Shown here: piece by piece, positions 2,214 through 44,562 of the stretch
Layout: the number at the start of each line of letters is the position of its first letter
How positions within the stretch are numbered: position 1 is the first letter of the stretch
From: Halorubrum sp. GN11_10-6_MGM
GTDB taxonomy: Archaea; Halobacteriota; Halobacteria; Halobacteriales; Haloferacaceae
NCBI RefSeq assembly: GCF_005435165.1
Contig: NZ_SGUC01000006.1
Coordinates: forward strand, 62,001-126,000
Direction: 5' to 3'
Length of the DNA stretch: 64,000 bases
Notes under the pieces: model-generated
Databases searched by the model: none
The model's input: only the letters and a program-made list of their open reading frames with translations
What the model was told of the DNA's origin: nothing
Translations under genes and position numbers: made by a program

Positions 2214-4163
2214 TCACTCCTCGTCGACGAAGTCCGGCTCCGTCCGCTTCTCCGAGCGCTCCGCGACGAGGTGGTCGACGAACGCGTCGAGGTCCACGTC
2301 GCCGCGCTGGTTCTCGAAGCGGTCGCGGACCGAGACGGTGCCCGCCTCCTGCTCGTCGTCGCCGACGATGACCATGTACGGGAGGCGGTCGTCGTGGCCC
2401 GCGCGGATCTTCCGGCCGACGGTCCAGTCGCGGTCCTCGACCTCGACGCGGAACCCCTCGCTCTCCAGCTCGTTTTTCACGCGGTGGGCGTACCCCAACG
2501 TCTCGTCGGAGACGGGGAGGATCCGGACCTGCTCCGGGGCGAGCCACAGCGGGAAGTTGCCGTCGAAGTGCTCGATCAGCACCATGAAGAAGCGCTCGTA
2601 GCTCCCGTACAGCGCCCGGTGGATCATCACGGGCTGGTGTTCCTCGTTGTCCTCGCCCGTGTAGGAGAGGTCGAACCGGTCGGGCATGTTGAAATCGAGC
2701 TGAACGGTCGGGCCGTCCCAGACGCGCCCCAGCGCGTCCTCGAACCCGAAGTCGATCTTCGGGCCGTAGAAGGCGCCGTCGCCGGGCTCGACGTCGTAGT
2801 CGTAGCCGCCGGACTCGAGCACGTCGCGGAGCTGTTCCTCGGCGGACTCCCAGATCTCGTCGCCGCCGACGGACTTGTCGGGGCGGGTCGCGAGCGCGAC
2901 CTCGACCTCCAGATCGAGCGTCTCGACGACCTCGAAGATCATCTCGATCACCGACTCGATCTCCTGCCGGATCTGGTCGGGGCGGACGAACAGGTGCCCG
3001 TCGTCGATGGTGAACGACCAGACGCGCGACAGGCCCGACAGCTCGCCGCGCTGCTCTTTCCGGTACACCTTCCCGTTCTCGAAGTAGCGCTGCGGGAGGT
3101 CGCGGTACGACCAGTTCTGCTGGTCGAAGATGGTCGCGTGGCCCGGGCAGTTCATCGGCTTCAGGCCGTACTCCTCGTCGTTGACGTCGAGGAGGAACAT
3201 GTCGTCCTTGTAGTTCTCGTAGTGGCCCGACTGCTTCCACAGCTCCGTCCGGAACACGTGGGGCGTCTCGACCTCCTCGTAGCCGTTCTCGCGGTTGAGC
3301 TCGTTCGCGAAGTCGGACAGCTCCCGCAGCACGGTCTTCCCCGGCGGGTGGTACAGCGGGAGGCCCGGGCCGGTCACCGTCGGGATCGAGAAGAGGTTCA
3401 TCTCCTGGCCGATCTTCCGGTGGTCGCGCTCTTGGGCCTGCTCGCGGAGTTCGAGGTACTCTTCGAGGTCGGACTCGCTCGCGAACGCCGTCCCGTACAC
3501 GCGCGTCAGCGTGTCGTTGTCTTCGTCGCCGCGCCAGTAGGCGGCCGACACCTCCAGCAGCGTCGCGGCGCCGATCTCGCCGGTCGACTCGACGTGCGGC
3601 CCCTGACAGAGGTCCTCCCAGTCGTCTTGGACGTAGAAGGTGACCTCCTCGCCGTCGGCCTCCTCGTCGAGGATCTGCCGCTTGTACTCGTTGTCGGCGT
3701 AGGTCTCCTTGGCCGCCTCGCGCGACCGGACCTCGCGCTCGATGTCGTAGTCGGCGGCGATGATCTCGTCCATCTCCGCCTCGATGGCGGCGAGGTCGTC
3801 CTCGTCGACGTCGACGTCGGCCACGTCGTAGTAGAAGCCGTCGTCTGTCGGGGGGCCGATCGTCAGCGTCGCCTCCGGGTGGAGCCGCTGGAGGGCCTGC
3901 GCGAACACGTGGGCCGCGGAGTGGCGCAACACCGTGAGGTACTCGTCCGACTGGTCGGTGACGATCTCGATCCGCGCGCCGTCGTGGACCTCGGCGTACT
4001 TCTCGACGAGTTCGCCGTCGATCTTCCCCGCGACGGTGTCGCGACCGAGCCCGGGGCCGATCTCGAAGGCGACGTCCTCGACTGTCGACCCCGCCGGAAC
4101 GGTCAGCTCTGATCCGTCCGGCAGGACGACCGTCACCTCGGCCTCCGCATCGGTCTCGCTCAT
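2214..4163 (-). CDS. thrS: Threonine--tRNA ligase
   Basis: A 649-residue threonyl-tRNA synthetase charging tRNA-Thr in the cytoplasm. It has the bacterial domain order: TGS domain (about 8-70), editing domain with [11 protein letters not shown] (about 88-98), class II core with [14 protein letters not shown] (motif 2 region) and [10 protein letters not shown], and a C-terminal anticodon-binding domain ([17 protein letters not shown]). The bacterial type is usual for haloarchaea. The start [10 protein letters not shown] is chosen over upstream in-frame codons because the TGS domain begins just after it and a TATA-like CTTATG sits 25-30 bases upstream. The upstream 222-bp spacer is shared with the divergent cysK and carries small hairpin repeats. 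Confidence 0.98.
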
Positions 4164-4187
4164 ACAGCATCGGAGCCGGACGACCGG

Positions 4188-4193
4188 CATAAG
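4188..4193 (-). promoter_or_regulatory. TATA-like element of thrS
   Basis: On the reverse strand this reads CTTATG, 25-30 bases before the thrS ATG. That is the spacing expected for a leaderless haloarchaeal transcript. Confidence 0.5.
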
Positions 4194-4232
4194 TGTGTTC
4201 GATCCGTGGCGGGGGGTCGCACGCGCGGCCGA

Positions 4233-4310
4233 CCGACTTCCCTGCGAGTCGGCTAAGAGTTCGACCCCTGCGGGTCGCAAGGACATCGACCCCTGCGAGT
4301 CGGCAAGGCC
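4233..4310. repeat. Three imperfect ~25-bp hairpin repeats in the thrS-cysK spacer
   Basis: Three related units sit almost head to tail, at about 4233-4257, 4261-4285 and 4286-4310. Each is built around CCTGCG(A/G)GTCG. Each can fold on itself: CCGACT/AGTCGG in unit 1, CGACCC/GGGTCG in unit 2, CGAC/GTCG in unit 3. They lie between two divergent promoters, so they could be regulator sites or transcribed hairpins. No known family is recognised. Confidence 0.6.
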
Positions 4311-4364
4311 TGCCGCGGCTCCGGACACCCGGAACCGGCGGAGTCGATGGCAACACACAAATCC

Positions 4365-4383
4365 CGCGGCAACCTTTGCCGCG
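4365..4383 (+). promoter_or_regulatory. Inverted repeat touching the cysK start codon
   Basis: CGCGGCAA-CCT-TTGCCGCG is a perfect 8-bp stem with a 3-base loop that ends two bases before the chosen cysK ATG. An A-rich TATA-like stretch (about 4352-4362) lies just upstream. In a leaderless transcript this would be an operator over the start site; in a leadered one it would occlude initiation. Either would regulate cysK, but this is inference. Confidence 0.5.
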
Positions 4384-4385
4384 CC

Positions 4386-5366
4386 ATGACCGATCATCGG
4401 GAGCCCCTGTCGTCGGTGTTGGAGACGATCGGGGAGACGCCGCTCGTCGAGGTCCACGACGCGCCGGAGGCGGTGCCCGTGTACGCCAAGCTGGAGTCGT
4501 TCAACCCCGGCGCGAGCATCAAGGACCGCATCGGGAAATACATGCTCGAACGGATGCTGGAGCGCGGCGACGTCGGCGAGGGCGGCACCGTGATCGAGCC
4601 GACCGCCGGCAACACCGGGATCGGGCTCGCCGTCGCGGCCAAGCAGCTGGGGCTGAACGCCGTCTTCGTGGTCCCCGAGCGCTTCTCCGTGGAGAAACAG
4701 CAGATCATGCGCGCGCTCGGCGCGGAGGTCGTCAACACGCCGAGCGACGACGGGATGGGATTCGCGATCGAGCGCGCCCACCAGATCGCCGACGAGCTCG
4801 ACGACGCCGTCGTCCCCCAGCAGTTCTCGAACCCACTCAACGCGGAGGCGCACTACGAGACGACCGCGCCGGAGATCGACGAGGCGCTCGACGGCGAGGT
4901 GGGCGCGGTCGTCGCCGGCTGCGGCACCGGCGGCACGCTGATGGGGATCGCCCGCTACTTCCGCGAGCGCGACCCGGACACCCACGTCACCGCGGTCGAG
5001 CCCGCGGGCTCCGCGTACCGCGAGTTCCTCGGCGAGGACGTCGACCACGAGGCGTACAAGACCGAGGGGATCGGCACGCACGACATCGACACCAACGAGC
5101 TGTTCGACCCCGACCTCGTCGACGACATCTGGGCGATCGACGACCGCGAGGTCCACGCGGAGATGGGCCGGCTCGCCGCCGAGGAGGGCCACCTCGCCGC
5201 CTCCTCGTCGGCCGCGAACGCGCTCGCGGCGAAGCGGGTCGCCCGCGGGATCCGCGACGGCGAGATCGACGCCCCGCACGACGCCGTCGTCACCGTCTTT
5301 CCGGATTCTTCCGAGCGATACCTCTCGAAGGGCGTCTACCGTAGCTTCGAGGAGTGGGAAGGGTAG
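4386..5366 (+). CDS. cysK: Cysteine synthase (PLP fold type II)
   Basis: A 326-residue O-acetylserine (or related) sulfhydrylase / cystathionine beta-synthase family enzyme, making cysteine by beta-replacement in the cytoplasm. Visible motifs are IGETPLVEV, the PLP lysine in [11 protein letters not shown] (Lys46), the substrate loop [10 protein letters not shown] (74-83) and the phosphate-binding GCGTGGT (about 178-184). Length matches the catalytic core only; there are no CBS domains. The start [10 protein letters not shown] is preferred over an in-frame ATG 39 bases upstream because family proteins begin close to the [11 protein letters not shown] motif. Divergent from thrS. Confidence 0.93.
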
Positions 5367-5380
5367 GGTGTCTATCGAGG

Positions 5381-5803
5381 TTAGCCCCGCAGACGACCGT
5401 GTTCGACCTTGAGACAGCGGTCTTGGACCACGTCGAGTCCGTCCGCTTCCGCGGCCGCGACCGCCTCGTCGTGAGTGATGCCGAGCTGGAGCCACACCGC
5501 GCCGGCGTCTCCCCGCTCGGCGTGGCGCTCGCGGACGGCGTCGACGATCTCCGGCACCTCCTCGCTGGGCCGGAAGACGTCCACGAGGTCGATCGCCTCC
5601 TCGACGTCGCCGATCGCGTCGTACGCCGGCTCGCCGAGCACCTCGTCCGCGAACGGGTTCACCGGAATCACGCGGTACCCCTGATTCTGGAGGTACGCGG
5701 GCACGTCGTGGGCGGCCTTCCCGGCCGTCGTCGAGCAGCCGACGACGGCGATCGTCTCCGCGTCGAGCAGGCGGTCGAGTCCGGCGTCGTCCGTGATGGG
5801 CAT
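5381..5803 (-). CDS. CoA-binding Rossmann-fold protein (YccU-like)
   Basis: A 140-residue single-domain protein. It begins with [27 protein letters not shown], of which [16 protein letters not shown] is the nucleotide-binding turn, followed by VIPVNP and [11 protein letters not shown], the signature of the small CoA-binding protein family related to succinyl-CoA synthetase alpha N-termini. The downstream [15 protein letters not shown] segment is also typical. The cellular role of stand-alone members is unsettled. It converges on cysK with 14 bases between stop codons. Confidence 0.88.
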
Positions 5804-5863
5804 AGCTCCCGATTCGGTCGCCGGCCGATTAAGCTGTAGGGTCGCTCGCCCGTGGGGCCCGGG

Positions 5864-6463
5864 TCAGGGGAGCCGGAGTTCGGGCTCGCCGTCCTCGGGG
5901 ACGGTGACGATCCCGTCGAACAGCTGCTTTAGCGTGTTCATCGCCTGATCGTCGTGGGCCGTCGAGTCGATGCTGTACAGCCCGAGCCCGTCGACGCTCT
6001 GGACTCGGCCGGTGAACACGTGGAGGAAGCGGAACACCGTCTGGAGGTCGGAGTACATCAACAGCGTCGACAGCGAGTGGACCATCACGCGGTTCCGGTC
6101 GATCCCGCGATCGCCGAACGCCTGGAGGAACTCGGAGAGCTTGATCCCGATACCGGTCATGTCCACCGGCGAGGAGGCGTACTTGATCCGGTCGGACTCG
6201 CGGGTCTCGCCGCCCTGCTGACGGGTGACGCAGTCGACGACCGCGACGGGTTTGCCCTCGTAGGGCGTCCGCTTCTCGTAGTCGCGGAGGACGCGATCGG
6301 CGCCGTCCTTCGTGGTGACGACGATGGCGCCCTCGTCGCGGTCGGTCCCCGCGGCGAGGACGTCCATCATGATCGACCGCTTCCCGCTGAGCGGGGGGCC
6401 GGTTAACAGGATGTTGGTCCCGGGATCGACCTCGGCGTCGAACTGCGGCGTCAACTCATACAT
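5864..6463 (-). CDS. HTR-like RecA-fold ATPase-like protein (DUF7504 type)
   Basis: A 199-residue protein with a Walker A-like loop LLTGPPLSGKRS (19-30) close to the N-terminus and the regular strand pattern of RecA/KaiC-like folds (VVDCVTRQQ, NRVMVHSLSTLLMYSD, GLGLYSIDSTAHDD). Haloarchaea have many such short proteins, often called HTR-like; some sit beside signalling genes, but none is assigned a function that I know of. The start MYELTPQFDA is chosen because the first strand follows directly. No TATA-like box sits 25-30 bases upstream. The nearest A/T block on this strand is about 100 bases upstream, so the message may have a leader. Confidence 0.75.
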   Translation of the reverse strand: MYELTPQFDAEVDPGTNILLTGPPLSGKRSIMMDVLAAGTDRDEGAIVVTTKDGADRVLRDYEKRTPYEGKPVAVVDCVTRQQGGETRESDRIKYASSPVDMTGIGIKLSEFLQAFGDRGIDRNRVMVHSLSTLLMYSDLQTVFRFLHVFTGRVQSVDGLGLYSIDSTAHDDQAMNTLKQLFDGIVTVPEDGEPELRLP

Positions 6464-6761
6464 GGACGCACCTCGGGGGCGACGACGTCGGCGCGGGCCA
6501 CTCGTTCGGCTGCGAGGCCGTGCGACCAGGACACATCTACTACCGAAACATGCCCGCTCCGAATAATATTCTTTTTGATCGCCCCTTGTGAGGCCGCGGT
6601 ACTCCTCCGCGCGGTCGCGGGCCGTTTCAGCCCGTGTATCCGCCACGGGATCGGCACCCCGCGACGTCGGAGCGGGAGAACGTGTCATACGGATAGATTG
6701 ATTGCGGCGGTGATTGGACGCGGAACGACGGACTGCGCGGCGGCGATTTCGAATCGCGGGA
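6464..6761. other. Spacer without recognisable gene
   Basis: About 300 bases between the HTR-like gene and the tRNA promoter. An A/T block (about 6561-6579, AATAATATTC followed by T-rich sequence) could be a promoter for the reverse-strand gene. I see no coding frame or repeat I can support. Confidence 0.5.
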
Positions 6762-6768
6762 CTTAACA
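6762..6768 (+). promoter_or_regulatory. TATA-like element of tRNA-Arg
   Basis: CTTAACA lies 26-32 bases before the mature 5' end of the tRNA, as expected for an archaeal tRNA promoter. Confidence 0.55.
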
Positions 6769-6793
6769 TCCTCTCGGAAGTACGTCGGAACAC

Positions 6794-6868
6794 GGGCGCT
6801 TAGCTCAGTTTGGACAGAGTGCTTGGCTTCGGACCAAGTTGCCACGGGTTCAAATCCTGTAGCGCCCA
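6794..6868 (+). tRNA. tRNA-Arg(TCG)
   Basis: Full cloverleaf. The acceptor stem GGGCGCT pairs with AGCGCCC (discriminator A at 6868). The D arm GCTC...GAGT is present. The anticodon stem CTTGG/CCAAG encloses the loop CTTCGGA with anticodon TCG (6829-6831). The T arm ACGGG-TTCAAAT-CCTGT is intact. No intron and no encoded CCA. Its last bases plus three following (6856-6871) recur 4.85 kb downstream, which makes this the likely anchor of the following island. Confidence 0.96.
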
Positions 6869-6964
6869 CTTACTCACCGACCGTCTCGGGACTAACAGCG
6901 AACGCGCCGTAGATGCTCCCTTCTCCGCGAACACGGCAGATACGCCGACTCGCGAGAAGCCGTC

Positions 6965-7023
6965 TCGAATCGGGTTGAGTACGCCACGGATCGCGGCCCC
7001 CTCACGTCGGGCGATCGGGTCCG
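6965..7023 (+). repeat. Diverged direct repeat, copy 1 (inside island left end)
   Basis: This 59-bp block, centred on GATCGCGGCCCC, matches 11812-11869 with about ten mismatches and one gap. Both copies begin nearly the same distance (about 93 bases) after their copy of the tRNA 3' end, so they are co-linear duplicates rather than chance matches. Confidence 0.7.
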
Positions 7024-7045
7024 CCAAGTTCGGGGTGATCCTCGG

Positions 7046-7240
7046 ATGATGGCGCTCCGGATCGACGCCGCGGACCCGGGCGTCTGCCGGGGGTGCGGCG
7101 CGCACGTCCCGAGCGACTTCCGTCGCGTTCACGGCGACGAGGATCAACTCGCGTACCGGTGCCCCGGGTGCGACTCGTGGGTCCGGATCTGCGAGGGGAG
7201 CGCGGCCGGGAAAGACGTCAAGAGGGGGGAGAGATTTTAG
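7046..7240 (+). CDS. Small zinc-ribbon protein (DUF7563-like)
   Basis: A 64-residue protein with two CxxC knuckles, CRGCGAHVPSDF and CPGCDSWVRIC, which should form one zinc ribbon. It looks like the short haloarchaeal zinc-ribbon family called DUF7563; role unknown. Two adjacent ATG codons (7046, 7049) are possible starts, and the second gives MALRIDAADPGVCRGCG. It is the first gene inside the island and reads toward the P-type ATPase remnant, which lies on the other strand. Confidence 0.65.
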   Translation: MMALRIDAADPGVCRGCGAHVPSDFRRVHGDEDQLAYRCPGCDSWVRICEGSAAGKDVKRGERF

Positions 7241-7260
7241 CGGAGGCGGCCGAGCAACTT

Positions 7261-7514
7261 CTAGTCGGAATCGGGCGTGTACCGACGGAACAGTGGATTG
7301 TTCGACAGTACCGACACGCTTGAGAACGCATCGCTCCGGCAGCGAGTAGCGGTTGGAGGAAGCCGAGCGGGGCCAGCGGGATCATAGCCGCGTTGTAGCG
7401 TAGTGCCCACAGGTGATTCCGCTCGATCTTCACGAGGGTCGCATCCGAGATGCGGATCGCCTTCGCGGCGTCCACCGGATCGTCGCGGGGCAGGATGCGG
7501 TCGGCGACCCCTGT
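7261..7514 (-). pseudogene. copA: 3' remnant of a copper-type P1B ATPase gene
   Basis: The reverse strand reads ...GVADRILPRDDPVDAAKAI, then IRISDATLVKIERNHLWAL and RYNAAMIPLAPLGFLQPLLA, ending AAGAM. This is the C-terminal end of a CopA-type heavy-metal ATPase, covering the last transmembrane helices. One base is then missing, and the next frame continues FSSVSVLSNNPLFRRYTPDSD to a TAG at 7261. That is the expected family tail (normally AFSSVSVL.NSLLFRRYTP). The 5' part of the gene, including the phosphorylation and metal-binding motifs, is absent. It is therefore an approximately 84-codon frameshifted fragment. The HTH-10 gene that follows on the other strand may have been its regulator. 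Confidence 0.85.
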
Positions 7515-7576
7515 ATCAGTATCAAATTCGCCGGCCCCTCGATTGCTCTGTCTACCGGTGACAGGCCGATTCCTTG

Positions 7577-7584
7577 TAGTTATC
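7577..7584 (+). promoter_or_regulatory. TATA-like element of the HTH-10 gene
   Basis: TAGTTATC lies 25-32 bases before the ATG at 7609 and supports that start instead of the in-frame codon 53 codons upstream. Confidence 0.45.
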
Positions 7585-7608
7585 CCGGCCGGACACGATA
7601 CTACGCAC

Positions 7609-8376
7609 ATGCGTGAGGTTGTGTTCACCGTCGAGTACGAGCGGGGGGCCGACGCGGTGATGGACCTCTTTATCGGGCATCCGGATTTGTCCGCCCGGTC
7701 GATGGAAGTGAACGCGACCAGCGAGACCGTCTGGGGCATCGAGAAGGTCGTCGGACCGACAGCCGTCCTCAATGAGTACGACGACCGTTTGGAACAGCTC
7801 GCCGACGATTCGACCCTGACCGGGATGTGTGGTGCTCCGATTACCGAGTATCAGTACGAGGTGCTGTCATCGAACCCGGAATCACGGAAGATCTACTCGC
7901 TCTGTCGGGAAGGCGACGGTCCGCGGTCGATTCCGATTGCGGCCGCCGAGCACCTCGGGGACGGGCTGGTTATGCGGTCCGGACGGCGAGGCGACCAGTT
8001 CCGCTGGCACCTTCTCACAGACGGTTCGATTGGTGACCTCCACGACGATATCCGTTCGAACCTCCGCGATGGGCTCTCACTCACGGTCGAACGACTGGGC
8101 GAGCCGCCGTGTCTACGCGAAGACGGGCGGGTACAGAATGCGCTGACGCCGGAGCAATCGTCGGCGCTGGAAGCTTCCCTCAAACACGGTTACTACGAGG
8201 AGCCGCGAGAGGCCTCAGTCGCCGAGATAGCCGACGAGATCGGCGTGCCGGGTTCGACGCTACAGTACCGGTTGAATCGCGCGGAGGCCTGGCTCGCCGA
8301 ACAGTTCGCCGCCGACTCGATGACCGTCGATATCGACACGCCACTCGACCTCGGAGACGTCGAGTTCATCCAATGA
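7609..8376 (+). CDS. HTH-10 (bacterio-opsin activator type) transcription regulator
   Basis: A 255-residue DNA-binding regulator. The N-terminal 180 residues form a ligand or signal domain of unknown specificity starting MREVVFTVEYERGADAVMD. The C-terminal domain has the HTH-10 signature LTPEQSSALEASLKHGYYEEPRE followed by SVAEIADEIGVPGSTLQYRLNRAEAWL; the glycine-tyrosine-tyrosine block and the recognition helix are intact. It sits beside the remnant of a copper ATPase gene, and haloarchaeal metal ATPases are often paired with such regulators, so metal response is a reasonable guess. The TnpB element begins directly after its stop codon. Confidence 0.88.
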   Translation: MREVVFTVEYERGADAVMDLFIGHPDLSARSMEVNATSETVWGIEKVVGPTAVLNEYDDRLEQLADDSTLTGMCGAPITEYQYEVLSSNPESRKIYSLCREGDGPRSIPIAAAEHLGDGLVMRSGRRGDQFRWHLLTDGSIGDLHDDIRSNLRDGLSLTVERLGEPPCLREDGRVQNALTPEQSSALEASLKHGYYEEPREASVAEIADEIGVPGSTLQYRLNRAEAWLAEQFAADSMTVDIDTPLDLGDVEFIQ

Positions 8377-8480
8377 CATCCTCCCCGGCGTGAACGCCGG
8401 GGTTTCCTCACGCTGGGGGTATCGCTTACCGGCCCACGGAGGCAACTTGCGGGTTCGTATGCTCCTCGTTGGGAACTGAG
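8377..8480 (-). ncRNA. Probable omega RNA / sense-overlapping RNA at the tnpB 3' end
   Basis: Reverse-strand RNA covering the last codons of tnpB and the trailing hairpin CCCCGGCG-TTCA-CGCCGGGG (8383-8402), followed by GGAGGATGTCA at the element edge. In this family an RNA from this place acts as the TnpB guide, and sense-overlapping RNAs from IS1341-type genes are known in haloarchaea. The guide would be the bases just past the edge, here the 3' end of the HTH-10 gene read in reverse (TTGGATGAACTCGACG). The 5' end of the RNA is not determinable from sequence. Confidence 0.6.
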
Positions 8481-40434: not shown

Positions 40435-41481
40435 TCAGCGACCGAATCCCTCGACGGCGACGACGCGCCGGACGCCGAGGTACGCGGCCGCGGCGATACC
40501 GACGTACGCGACCACCAGAAGGCCAGTCGTCGCGTCGGCGCTGTCGATGGCGAGGCGGGCCACCGCGTTCGCGGGTCCGCCCGCCATCGCCGTCGCGCCG
40601 CCGAACAGCACGAGGACGGCGACCGAGTAGAGCAGCTGCGCCGCCCGGCGGTCGGGCGCGACCGCCGCGATGCCGACCGCGACGGCGACGACGAGCGTCG
40701 TCAGCGCGGTCATCAGCGCCAGTATCGGGCCGACGTTCGCGACGTTGGTCCCGTTGGCCTCCAGAAGGAGGAGCCACAGCAGGGCCTGCGCGGGGGCGAT
40801 CCCGACCGCGGCGGCGGCCTTCCCGTCGACGATCTCGCCGACCGTGACGGGCGCGACCCGGAGCAGCTCCATGGTTCCGCGGTCCAGCTCCTCGGTGATC
40901 GAGTCGACGACGAGCGAGCCCGAGATGAACACAGGGAGGAACACGAGCACGGGGATCAACACGGTGTAGGTGAACGCGAAGTACGGGCTCGTCTCCCCCC
41001 GGTCGGGCAGCGGCAGCGGCGACTCCTCCAAGAACGAGGCGCGCGCGTCGCGCTCGTTCAGCTCGTACGTCCGCAACAGCTCGCGCAGCTGGACCACGAT
41101 CACCGTCGTCTCCACGGTGGAGTCGGGGGCGGTGACGGCGGCCGACACCCGCCCCGACTCGGTGCGGGTCGCGACCACCACCGCGTCGGCCGCGTTCCGC
41201 TCGAAGGCGCTCCGCGCCGCGTCAGGGTCGTCGTACGGCGTGACGGAGGCGCCGGGGACCTCGCCGGCGGCGCGCTCCAGATCGTCGACGGCGTCGCCAG
41301 CGGCCGCGACCTCGATCTCCGCGCCGTCGAGCGCGCCCGGGTCGTACATCGAGACGAGCCCGACGACGAGGAACGACGAGAAGGCGGCGATGAACAGCTG
41401 AATCCCGATCGCCAGCAGGATCGTCTTCTCGGCGCGGAGCCCCGCGAGCTCCCGCCCGGCGATCGTCAGCCGGCTATCCAA
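40435..41481 (-). CDS. ABC-2 type export permease
   Basis: A 348-residue permease with one N-terminal helix, a large outward domain (about 45-165) and five or six helices in the C-terminal half; the motif ITEELDRGTMELLRVAPVTV is the ABC-2 signature. It is the last of three overlapping genes (ATPase, permease-protease fusion, permease). Similar to NatB/CcmB-like sodium or peptide exporters, substrate unknown. The N-terminus overlaps the preceding gene by 8 bases. Confidence 0.87.
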   Translation of the reverse strand: MDSRLTIAGRELAGLRAEKTILLAIGIQLFIAAFSSFLVVGLVSMYDPGALDGAEIEVAAAGDAVDDLERAAGEVPGASVTPYDDPDAARSAFERNAADAVVVATRTESGRVSAAVTAPDSTVETTVIVVQLRELLRTYELNERDARASFLEESPLPLPDRGETSPYFAFTYTVLIPVLVFLPVFISGSLVVDSITEELDRGTMELLRVAPVTVGEIVDGKAAAAVGIAPAQALLWLLLLEANGTNVANVGPILALMTALTTLVVAVAVGIAAVAPDRRAAQLLYSVAVLVLFGGATAMAGGPANAVARLAIDSADATTGLLVVAYVGIAAAAYLGVRRVVAVEGFGR

Positions 41482-43540
41482 GGCTCACCACCCCGACGTT
41501 GTACGCGGCGTGTCCCAGCGTCGCGAGGGTCAGCGCCACGGCGTAGGCGGTCCGGCCGCGGCTCGCGCCGACGCTCGCGACGCTCGTCGTCGCGACGTGG
41601 AGGGCGAGCGGCGCGAAGAACAGCGCGGCGAGCGCGAGCGGCGGCAGCCCGGAGAGCCCGGCCACGTCCGCGAACGCGGCGCGGCCGAGGAACAGATCGG
41701 TGAGCCCGACCGCCTGAACGACCGCGGTGACCTTCTCCGCGACGAAGAACCCGGTCCCCGAGGCGATGCCGACCGCGAGCGCGACGCGAAGCGTTCCGCC
41801 GTCTCCCCCACGCCCTTCCCCGGCGTCGACGCCGTCGGTCCGCCCGAAGACGCCGCGCTCGAACCCGGCGTACAGGGCGATGCTCTTCGCGACCTCCTCG
41901 ATGAACGCGATGCTCACGAGCAGCACCGGGATCGACACCGTGACCGGCAGCGCGAACAACACCGCGACGGCCAAAAGCTCCGCGACGAAGACGAACGGGA
42001 TCGTACAGGCGGTGAGGAGCGCGACGGCGCCGAGCGCGCGAAGCAGGCCGCGGTCGAGGAGTCCGCTACCGACCGACACGGGCGACAGCCGAACCGCGAG
42101 CGCGTCGAGGAACTTCCGGGTCACCGGTTTCTGTGAGAACATGTCCTCCTCGCGGTAGACGCCGAGGCCGAGTCCGAAGAGGAGGGCGGCCCCGACCGCC
42201 ATCGGCGCGGTCGAGAAGAGGGCCTCGCCCGCCGACACCGCCTCTCCCTGGAGGTCGAAGACGACGAGCGTCAGCGGCGAGACGAGCGCGACCGGCGTCA
42301 CGTTCGTGAAGATGGCCGGCACGAACGCGTAGGTGGTCAGCAGGACGCTCACGCCGACCGTGACGAAGGTGAGCTCCTTGAACGAGCGCGCGAACATCGC
42401 GCCGACGAAGGTGGCCCCGAGGAACGCCGCGGCCACGGGCGCCACCGCGATCACCGAGAGCGCCCCGCCGCCGACGAGGGCAGCGATGAGCGTCGTGACG
42501 ACCGCGGCGGTCGCCGCGTACGGCAGCGTCTTGCCGGCGACGATCTCGCCCGGCGACAGCGGCGTGACGAGCAGTGGCTCCCCGCGGCGGTTCGTCCGCT
42601 CGTCGAGGATCGACGACCCGTACGCCTGAATCAGGAAGTTCATGGGGACGAGGAAGACGAACGCGAGAAGCAGCGAGGTGAACGGGAACGGCGGCGTGAT
42701 CGAGCCGGGAGACCCGACCGTGTCCGCGCCGAAGGCGGCGCCGCCGATCGAGGGGACGCCGAGGAGGCCGTCGCTCCCGTCCGATTCGGCGGCGCCGTCG
42801 CCCGAGTCGGTACCGCCGGCGTCGGCGCCGTCGCTCTCCCCGTCGCCGGTCCCGCCGTCGGCGACGCCGCTCTCGTCGTCGCTCCCCCCGTCGCCGGAGC
42901 CGTCCCCGCCGGTTCCGTCGGCAGACCCGTCCGTCGAACCCCCCGTCGAACCGCCGTCGCTGCCGCCGAGCGTCGCGCCGTCGTCGAAGCCGGTCGTCCG
43001 GCCGACGTACCGGAGCGTGACGGTGACCGGGAACGCCGCCGTCCGGTTGGGTTCGGCGCGCATCAGCCGCTCGTTGTGCGCCTCGACCGCCTCGCGGACC
43101 GCCGCGGCCGCCGCCTCGCCCTTCCGGGTGTCGCTCGCGCGGACGATCACGTCCTCCACGTCCGCGGCGTCGACCGTCTCGTCGTCGACGGAACCGGGCC
43201 GCACCACCGTCACCACGACCGCGTCGGCGGAGTCGCCGAGCGACGACGTCCCGGCCGGGACCGCGCGCAGTGACGGCTCCGCCTCGATCGCGTCCGCGTA
43301 CGGCGACTCGGCGTCGACGCCGACGCGGTACACGTCGCGGTCGACGTCGAGTCCCGCGACGCCCGTCGCCACGCCGACGCCGACCACGCCGCCGGCGACG
43401 AGGAGCAGGGCCACCCCGGCGGCGAGCGTTCGGCGGTCGACCCCGCCGGACGCGCGGGCCGACTCCCACCTCGCGACCCGGAGGACGCGCCGGACGCTGA
43501 CCGCGAGCCGACGAGCGGCGCGGCGGAGCCGGTCGGTCAC
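41474..43540 (-). CDS. ABC-2 permease fused to a PrsW-type protease domain
   Basis: A 688-residue membrane protein with two parts. Residues about 1-450 are an ABC-2 export permease with an outward domain containing a serine/glycine/aspartate linker (about 190-255) and the motif ILDERTNRRGEPLLVTPLSP. Residues about 500-688 look like a PrsW/CPBP-like intramembrane protease: VSIAFIEEVAKSIAL (EExxK, about 545-559), GTGFFVAEKV (FxxxE), LALHVATTSV and LGHAAYNVGV (His motifs). The stop and start overlap the flanking genes. The fusion suggests that exported or membrane-inserted substrate is also cleaved by the same machine; this is inference. Confidence 0.85.
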   Translation of the reverse strand: MTDRLRRAARRLAVSVRRVLRVARWESARASGGVDRRTLAAGVALLLVAGGVVGVGVATGVAGLDVDRDVYRVGVDAESPYADAIEAEPSLRAVPAGTSSLGDSADAVVVTVVRPGSVDDETVDAADVEDVIVRASDTRKGEAAAAAVREAVEAHNERLMRAEPNRTAAFPVTVTLRYVGRTTGFDDGATLGGSDGGSTGGSTDGSADGTGGDGSGDGGSDDESGVADGGTGDGESDGADAGGTDSGDGAAESDGSDGLLGVPSIGGAAFGADTVGSPGSITPPFPFTSLLLAFVFLVPMNFLIQAYGSSILDERTNRRGEPLLVTPLSPGEIVAGKTLPYAATAAVVTTLIAALVGGGALSVIAVAPVAAAFLGATFVGAMFARSFKELTFVTVGVSVLLTTYAFVPAIFTNVTPVALVSPLTLVVFDLQGEAVSAGEALFSTAPMAVGAALLFGLGLGVYREEDMFSQKPVTRKFLDALAVRLSPVSVGSGLLDRGLLRALGAVALLTACTIPFVFVAELLAVAVLFALPVTVSIPVLLVSIAFIEEVAKSIALYAGFERGVFGRTDGVDAGEGRGGDGGTLRVALAVGIASGTGFFVAEKVTAVVQAVGLTDLFLGRAAFADVAGLSGLPPLALAALFFAPLALHVATTSVASVGASRGRTAYAVALTLATLGHAAYNVGVVSLG

Positions 43541-44562
43541 TCGGTCGCCTCCGTCGCGGTCGCGCTCGTCTCGTCGCCCTCGTCGCCCTCGTCGCTCTCA
43601 TCGCTGTCGGAGTTACGCTCGACTCCGAGGCTATCACCGCCGCGGTCGCCGGTGTACCGCCCGGGCATCGGGCGGCCGACGATGTCTAAGAAGACGTCTT
43701 CGAGGCTCGGCTCGCGGCTCCGGATGTCGACGACCTCGCCGCCGGCGTCGGCGACCGCCTCGCGGACGGCCGCGACCGCGTCCATGCTCGGGACCGCGGT
43801 CCGGAACCGGTCGCCGACCGCCTCCGTCGTCGCGTCGAGGTCGGCGAGCGCGGCCGTCGCGGTCGGCTCGACATCGGTGAACACGCGGTAGGTGGTCTCG
43901 CCGTGGCGCTCGCGGATCTCGTCGACGCTGCCGCGGGCGACGATCCGCCCCTCGTTCATCACGGCGACGCGGTCGCAGACGGACTCGACGTGGTAGAGGT
44001 TGTGCGCCGAGAAGACGACCGTCTTGCCCGTCTCGCGGAGCTCGCGGGTGAACGCCAGCACGGAGTTCGTCGTCACGGGGTCGAGCCCGGAGGCCGGCTC
44101 GTCGTACACCAGCACGTCTGGGTCGTTGACCAGCGAGCGCGCGATGGCGACCTTGCGTTTCATGCCCTTCGAGACGTCGCCGAGGCGGCGCTCGCGGTGG
44201 TCGAGTTCGAGGCGGTCGAGCGCGGCGCCGATCCGTTCGTCGGCGACCTCGCGGGGCACGTCGTAGAGGTCGGCGAAGAAGCGGAGGTACGACAGCGCGG
44301 TCATCTCCTCGTACAGCGGCGACTCCTCGGGCAGGAACCCGAGGTGCCGGCGCATCTCCGAGTCCCCGGCGTCGAACCCGGCGACGGTCACTTCTCCGTC
44401 CGTCGGCTCGACGAGCCCGGCGATCACCTTGAGCGTCGTCGTCTTGCCGGCGCCGTTCGGGCCGACGATCCCGAACACCTCGCCGTCGTCGACGGCGAAA
44501 TCGCTGTCGACCACGGCGGCGAAGTCGCCGTAGGTCTTCCGTAGCCCCGACACCTCGATCAT
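43537..44562 (-). CDS. ABC transporter ATPase
   Basis: A 341-residue ATPase with Walker A GIVGPNGAGKTTT (about 32-44), signature DVSKGMKRKVAIA, Walker B VLVYDEPASGLD and an H-loop histidine in VFSAHNLYHVES. After the nucleotide-binding domain a regulatory region ends in an acidic tail of repeated SDESDEGDEGDE type. It drives the two downstream permeases, to which it is linked by ATGA overlaps. Confidence 0.95.
   Translation of the reverse strand: MIEVSGLRKTYGDFAAVVDSDFAVDDGEVFGIVGPNGAGKTTTLKVIAGLVEPTDGEVTVAGFDAGDSEMRRHLGFLPEESPLYEEMTALSYLRFFADLYDVPREVADERIGAALDRLELDHRERRLGDVSKGMKRKVAIARSLVNDPDVLVYDEPASGLDPVTTNSVLAFTRELRETGKTVVFSAHNLYHVESVCDRVAVMNEGRIVARGSVDEIRERHGETTYRVFTDVEPTATAALADLDATTEAVGDRFRTAVPSMDAVAAVREAVADAGGEVVDIRSREPSLEDVFLDIVGRPMPGRYTGDRGGDSLGVERNSDSDESDEGDEGDETSATATEATE

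Follow-up and report, generated by a model that had tools for sequence, protein, structure and literature searches.

We describe an ABC exporter from haloarchaea and methanogen relatives in which one of two permeases ends in a PrsW-type intramembrane protease domain. In Halorubrum sp. GN11_10-6_MGM, three overlapping genes encode the ATPase, the fused permease, and a second permease, in that order. The catalytic-type motifs of the domain are fixed, and the fused gene is conserved across the phylum. By analogy with known exporters, we tentatively propose that the domain is an active protease and that this machine would cut peptides that are embedded in the membrane and then extract them; we rate the chance that this is correct as a little below even. 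By the window, we mean the whole stretch of DNA that we analysed, which is 64,000 nucleotides long. Residue numbers are those of the 688-residue fused protein, and papers identified by PMC number are cited from excerpts.

Results

The operon

The three genes occupy 44562-40435 on the minus strand of the window (Table 1). The ATPase gene and the fused gene overlap by 4 nt, and the fused gene and the second permease gene overlap by 8 nt. A preliminary description of this locus had reported three overlapping genes, with a fused middle gene that carries EExxK, FxxxE, and histidine motifs, and we found all of these where it had placed them.

Table 1. Features of the operon and of the fused protein, with positions in the window
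Feature	Positions	Strand	Remarks
ABC ATPase (NBD), DrrA/GldA-like, with DrrA1-3 C-terminal domain, 341 aa	43537..44562	-	PF00005, PF13732
Fused ABC-2 permease and PrsW-type intramembrane protease domain, 688 aa, GTG start	41474..43540	-	
ABC-2 permease part, residues 1-462: elbow helix, TM1, extracellular alpha/beta domain (~60-180), more TMs	42155..43540	-	
Gly/Ser/Asp-rich disordered linker, predicted outside the cell, residues 181-283 (~100)	42692..43000	-	low pLDDT
PrsW-type protease domain, residues 466-688; four TM helices with one motif each	41477..42145	-	
Motif 1, EEVAK, residues 548-552	41885..41899	-	E548, E549, K552 invariant
Motif 2, FFVAEK, residues 598-603, catalytic-type E602	41732..41749	-	E602, K603 invariant
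Motif 3, H648	41597..41599	-	invariant
Motif 4, HAAYN, residues 677-681	41498..41512	-	H677 invariant; N681 in 81/82
Second ABC-2 permease, no protease domain, 348 aa, TTG start	40435..41481	-	PF12698

The ATPase matches its two Pfam families with E = 1.2e-28 (PF00005) and E = 1e-09 (PF13732). It also matches TIGR01188 from NCBIfam (E = 3.3e-73), at a score that is under the curated cut-off for that family. The 348-residue permease matches PF12698 with 45.9 bits, against a cut-off of 31.6. The same family matches residues 289-411 of the fused protein with 20.1 bits (E = 0.00037), which is under the cut-off. We scanned 27 relatives of the fused protein, and 24 of them match this family as well (E up to 1), the best at E = 4.8e-09.

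At all 115 loci that we compared, the second permease gene adjoins the fused gene on the same strand. An ATPase gene was located at 106 of these loci, on the same strand as the fused gene at 76 and on the opposite strand at 30. As for the nine loci without an ATPase, the fused gene is truncated by the contig start at four of them, and the flank extends for only about 1.1-1.5 kb at the other five. Divergent ATPase genes are found at Methanomicrobiales loci. More broadly, methanogen relatives (L075-L081 and many of L104-L131) have an ATPase gene that diverges from the permease pair, and in haloarchaea the ATPase gene heads the operon.

The linker of the fused protein has the highest dN of the four regions that we compared, in 6 of 6 pairs, and pLDDT is below 50 over residues 180-284 of the full-length structural model. 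The PrsW domain is under purifying selection, with a dN/dS of 0.23-0.41 by simple Nei-Gojobori estimates. For the permease helices, dN/dS is 0.07-0.31 and falls below the value for the domain in 5 of 6 pairs, so in those pairs selection is weaker on the domain. The linker is inserted within the permease part, and the overall length of the relatives varies from 600 to 742 residues.

The C-terminal domain

The motifs of the C-terminal domain are conserved far beyond Halorubrum. We aligned the window protein with the sequences of 81 loci. All 82 rows are identical at E548, E549, K552, E602, K603, H648, and H677, and also at F598. This alignment is redundant, in that the same species can enter it from two collections and one locus (L001) is the window itself. 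Another 35 frames (loci L098-L132) all keep EExxK, EK, and both histidines, and one of them (L121) has tyrosine in place of F598. Five of the 35 repeat earlier genomes, and L122 and L132 are one gene. These frames came from 29 genomes that were chosen for their spread across families out of the 202 matching genomes of the phylum, and all 29 matched.

We also built two smaller alignments: A1, a script-made subset of 27 rows with under 85% identity, and A2, with 54 rows. Identities to the window protein fall to 25% in A2, and just eight of its columns are invariant (E548, E549, K552, E602, K603, P644, H648, and H677). Six of these eight are the EExxK residues, the motif-2 glutamate, and the two histidines. 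If kinship among the sequences is ignored, the probability that random placement would put all six motif residues among the eight invariant columns is about 5e-10. Two loci (L129 and L131) were excluded from A2 by the profile cut-off and yet bear the motifs, and a third (L030) was excluded for an insertion. That the motif residues are kept as identity drops to 25% points to catalysis.

To which family of proteases does the domain belong? When the A2 profile was compared by hhalign with 11 standalone PrsW proteins from haloarchaea, it matched at 94.8% (E = 5.5e-08) with the motifs in register. Against a CPBP profile it reached 0.8%, which is a weak control as there were only 4 CPBP sequences. 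The CPBP/type II CAAX motif, EExxxR, is absent; all 54 rows of A2 have EExxK. The window protein alone has no PrsW match in Pfam (E up to 1) or in NCBIfam. The Pfam family for PrsW, PF13367, was matched by 1 of 27 relatives in a per-protein scan, and in whole-genome scans its cut-off was exceeded by the fused-gene frames of two genomes (G007 and G008). It was also exceeded by a 607-residue frame of a third genome (G009), which adjoins a permease match and is probably orthologous. On the basis of these sequence comparisons, we file the C-terminal domain as a probable divergent member of the PrsW branch of the CAAX/PrsW/APH-1 superfamily, with the window protein falling under the Pfam score. The genome that contains the window encodes a separate and ordinary PrsW as well (G000:C31). 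The glutamate of motif 2 is followed by an invariant lysine (EK) in the fused family versus asparagine (EN) in haloarchaeal PrsW, and this may be a signature of the fused branch.

Other families fit less well. The NCBIfam model NF041647, for an ABC transporter permease subunit fused to a CPBP intramembrane protease, does not cover these proteins: 0 of 20 relatives scored over its 435-bit cut-off, and the fused window protein had no match. The 348-residue permease did match the permease part of that model, with 27.7 bits. Pfam includes a family for EcsB, and neither the window proteins nor 27 relatives of the fused protein match it (E up to 1). Pfam also found no C39 peptidase domain in the window proteins.

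Predicted structure and topology

A model of the full-length fused protein, built from 27 sequences, has a mean pLDDT of 76.2. In it, the extra helices come after an ABC-2-like permease that has an alpha/beta domain outside the cell. A model of the C-terminal domain by itself, built from 54 sequences, has a pLDDT of 90.5 and a pTM of 0.88, and each motif is predicted to sit in the middle of a helix. Foldseek found nothing at E up to 0.001 with either model. Among the matches for the whole model were exporters (a mycobacterial efflux pump, NosFY, ABCA4, and ABCG5/8). When the Foldseek candidates for the domain were realigned, the top match was chain C of gamma-secretase (Z = 11.1, rmsd 5.5, 173 residues aligned), and the tool describes Z values of this size as common among helical bundles. 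The next matches had Z of 10.3 and 10.2, several ABC permeases had Z of 5 to 9, and SpdC had 5.4. Rce1 (PDB 4CAD) was not among the chains listed for the domain, an absence that excludes nothing. Searching the PDB by sequence turned up no more than four matches, at E = 0.5, which we read as chance.

Chain C is APH-1, as the excerpts of the ECOD paper state for 5a63; the same excerpts group APH-1 with the CAAX proteases and give ABCG and ABCA permeases the same topology as APH-1 (PMC6588880). Because ABC-2 permeases and APH-1 have a common topology, the structural matches are weak evidence, and a protease cannot be separated from a permease by structure alone. It is the motifs that separate them. 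Also, APH-1 is not known as the subunit that catalyses cleavage in gamma-secretase, so the fold alone is no proof of catalysis.

The charges of the loops agree with a predicted topology in which the domain starts in the cytoplasm and both the 613-634 loop and the C-terminus are outside. Specifically, the mean number of lysines and arginines in the haloarchaeal rows and in the other rows, respectively, is 5.0 and 3.8 before TM1, 2.3 and 1.2 after TM2, 0.6 and 0.06 after TM3, and 2.5 and 2.1 after TM4. Judging from the positions of the helices in the models, the motifs would lie in the middle of the membrane.

Taken with the invariant motifs and the match to PrsW by hhalign, the confident model of the domain (pLDDT 90.5) bears out the PrsW-type fusion that the preliminary description had proposed. 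That description had also named the finding that would undo its proposal, namely a C-terminal region of normal permease helices that lacks a conserved EExxK. EExxK is invariant, and the fusion stands.

Occurrence across genomes

The preliminary description had suggested a survey of other archaea. We found the fused gene in 202 of the 392 genomes of the phylum (E up to 1e-10) and in 164 of the 243 genomes of the order (E up to 0.001). Since there was no match in the other 79 genomes of the order, the system is dispensable or replaceable. There were 51 loci on named genome contigs, and identity over the C-terminal domain is up to 86% for named relatives.

For 17 loci, we had longer flanking sequences, of several kb. 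Only the three genes of the operon, and frames that are antisense to them, are common to all 17. Other neighbours recur only in subsets of these loci, mostly in Halorubrum and its near kin. Different genera thus retain the set of three genes but not its wider surroundings. At the 17 loci, no gene for a small peptide recurs next to the operon, among open reading frames of at least 40 amino acids (shorter peptides would be missed), and no regulator gene is conserved there either. The preliminary description had offered the export of a peptide as one branch of its idea, and the search for small genes gave that branch no conserved neighbour at these loci.

We note two unusual copies. On a 540-kb plasmid of Haladaptatus salinisoli, the operon is at 3514-8441 (L133) and is followed by a DUF4112 gene and then by a gene annotated as "20S proteasome subunit A/B." And a metagenome-assembled genome that is titled Bacteroidetes (G564) includes a haloarchaeal-type copy at the end of a contig (L069/G564:C24), with 51-58% identity to the window and a GC content of 52%. 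Among 148 genomes from the phylum of G564, the fused C-terminus is found in G564 only; the other 3 matches are to short stretches of the permease (E of about 5e-7). The contig may be misbinned archaeal DNA, or it may reflect a transfer.

Discussion

If the protease domain is active, how might the exporter work? We suggest that it would be a type V (ABC-2) exporter whose simplest make-up would be two copies of the ATPase with one 688-residue permease and one 348-residue permease. The 688-residue subunit would hold an active PrsW-type protease within the membrane, adjacent to the translocation path. The protease would clip short peptides that are embedded in the membrane (signal-peptide remnants, membrane stubs, or small proteins with a single helix), and the exporter, driven by ATP, would pull the clipped product from the bilayer. 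This would be analogous to EcsAB or PptAB acting after an intramembrane protease, with the difference that the cutter and the extractor would be in one chain. We infer the proteolytic activity, the stoichiometry, the direction of transport, and the substrate, and likewise the coupling of membrane cleavage to export. Given that the operon has no dedicated partner gene and is widespread, we expect a general substrate rather than a dedicated one. Several results count against the proposal: the window protein has no PrsW match in Pfam (E up to 1) and just 1 of 27 relatives has one in the per-protein scan, dN/dS is higher for the domain than for the permease helices in 5 of 6 pairs, and 79 of the 243 genomes of the order gave no match to the fused gene.

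A more detailed version of this proposal seems rather doubtful to us. In it, the PrsW domain would take in transmembrane helices laterally, cut them in the bilayer, and pass the product to the ABC-2 cleft of its own chain, and the whole would be an archaeal system for the disposal of membrane peptides that is old in the phylum. The 688-residue protein might pack as two halves of similar fold, one transporting and one cutting, because ABC-2 permeases and the APH-1/CAAX proteins share a six-helix topology according to excerpts of the ECOD paper (PMC6588880).

It might be argued that the exporter is of an ordinary kind, for lipids, drugs, or ions, and that the PrsW-like domain is structural or regulatory, as APH-1 is in gamma-secretase. 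APH-1 is the best match to the domain in the PDB (Z = 11.1, rmsd 5.5, 173 residues aligned), and the permease part is similar to general exporters. However, we would expect a scaffold to lose some of the catalytic-type residues, and all six, including both glutamates of EExxK and E602, are invariant in 54 diverse sequences, so we consider this unlikely. We find it very hard to believe that the C-terminal region is just surplus permease helices whose motifs are coincidental. The lack of a Pfam PrsW match for the window protein alone and the ABC permeases in the domain's structural list (Z of 5 to 9) fit with this, but the invariant motifs are in register with PrsW, and orthologues are over the cut-off for PF13367.

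Other readings accept an active protease and give it a narrower task. The protease could mature a single signalling or antimicrobial peptide that the ABC part secretes, as in PCAT or RiPP systems. There is precedent for cutting and then exporting in the TMcin pathway, from the excerpts of a preprint (PMC13252029), and in the export of pheromones by PptAB. Nevertheless, no peptide gene (among reading frames of at least 40 amino acids) is common to the 17 loci, and the phylum-wide spread of the operon is unlike that of a bacteriocin cluster, so a dedicated peptide exporter strikes us as quite unlikely. Alternatively, the operon could be a sensor, in which a regulator bound to the membrane would receive a site-1-like cut depending on the state of the exporter. 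A cut of this kind is made by PrsW itself in Bacillus subtilis, where it is the site-1 protease of the anti-sigma factor RsiW (excerpts of PMC4602095 and PMC3482391). We give the sensor little credence, as no conserved regulator gene adjoins the operon and the ordinary PrsW is present separately in the same genome.

Our preferred reading, an exporter that would cut and then extract peptides, matters for several reasons. A fused protease-exporter in haloarchaea and methanogen relatives with fixed catalytic-type residues, would be a single genetic target for asking whether cleavage and export are mechanically coupled. The reading also suggests a role for a gene about which RefSeq, in its record of the Haladaptatus salinisoli plasmid, says no more than "ABC transporter permease subunit." Little is known about the fate of membrane-embedded peptide remnants in archaea. 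In its excerpts, a review of membrane proteases lists one PrsW-like protein in Haloferax volcanii and describes its function there as unknown (PMC9263693).

Comparison with known systems

The C-terminal domain shares EExxK, the motif-2 glutamate, two histidines, and the core transmembrane helices with PrsW (PF13367). It differs in being fused to an ABC permease and in having EK rather than EN at motif 2. PCAT transporters also have a protease and an exporter in one chain, but theirs is a soluble cysteine protease with a different type of ABC exporter. The C39 domain of PCAT is not found in the window proteins. APH-1 resembles the C-terminal domain in its fold and, according to excerpts, in its membership in the CAAX/PrsW superfamily (PMC6588880); in contrast, it has QExxR instead of EExxK and is part of another complex.

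EcsAB and PptAB with RasP and Eep are comparable in proposed function. There too, an ABC exporter is associated with an intramembrane protease, and membrane-derived peptides are processed and exported (excerpts of PMC7157817 and PMC2996298), but the protease is of a different type and is a protein in its own right. In Staphylococcus aureus, Eep and EcsAB are described as one pathway that makes and exports several peptides (PMC7157817), and Ecs has been proposed to clear peptides out of the membrane (PMC2996298). Similarly, the TMcin preprint states in its excerpts that the secretion of a transmembrane-helix peptide requires an ABC transporter after the cut by an intramembrane protease (PMC13252029).

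A literature search that covered few subscription papers found, in titles, abstract openings, and excerpts, no description of an exporter with two permeases of which one is fused to PrsW. The preliminary description had suggested a distinct way to process or clear membrane proteins or to export a peptide. The PrsW-type fusion holds up, but the system is less distinct than was suggested, as NCBIfam already has NF041647 and PrsW and CPBP share one superfamily according to excerpts (PMC6588880, PMC4602095). In NF041647, as in the window protein, a single chain begins with an ABC-2 permease and continues into an intramembrane protease domain. The protease of NF041647 is of the CPBP type, whereas the window protein's is of the PrsW type, and the window's operon family differs again in having a protease-free permease gene beside the fused gene at 115 of 115 loci. 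Thus, the joining of a permease to an intramembrane protease is an architecture that curators already know, and the PrsW fusion, which is conserved through an archaeal phylum, is a new version of it.
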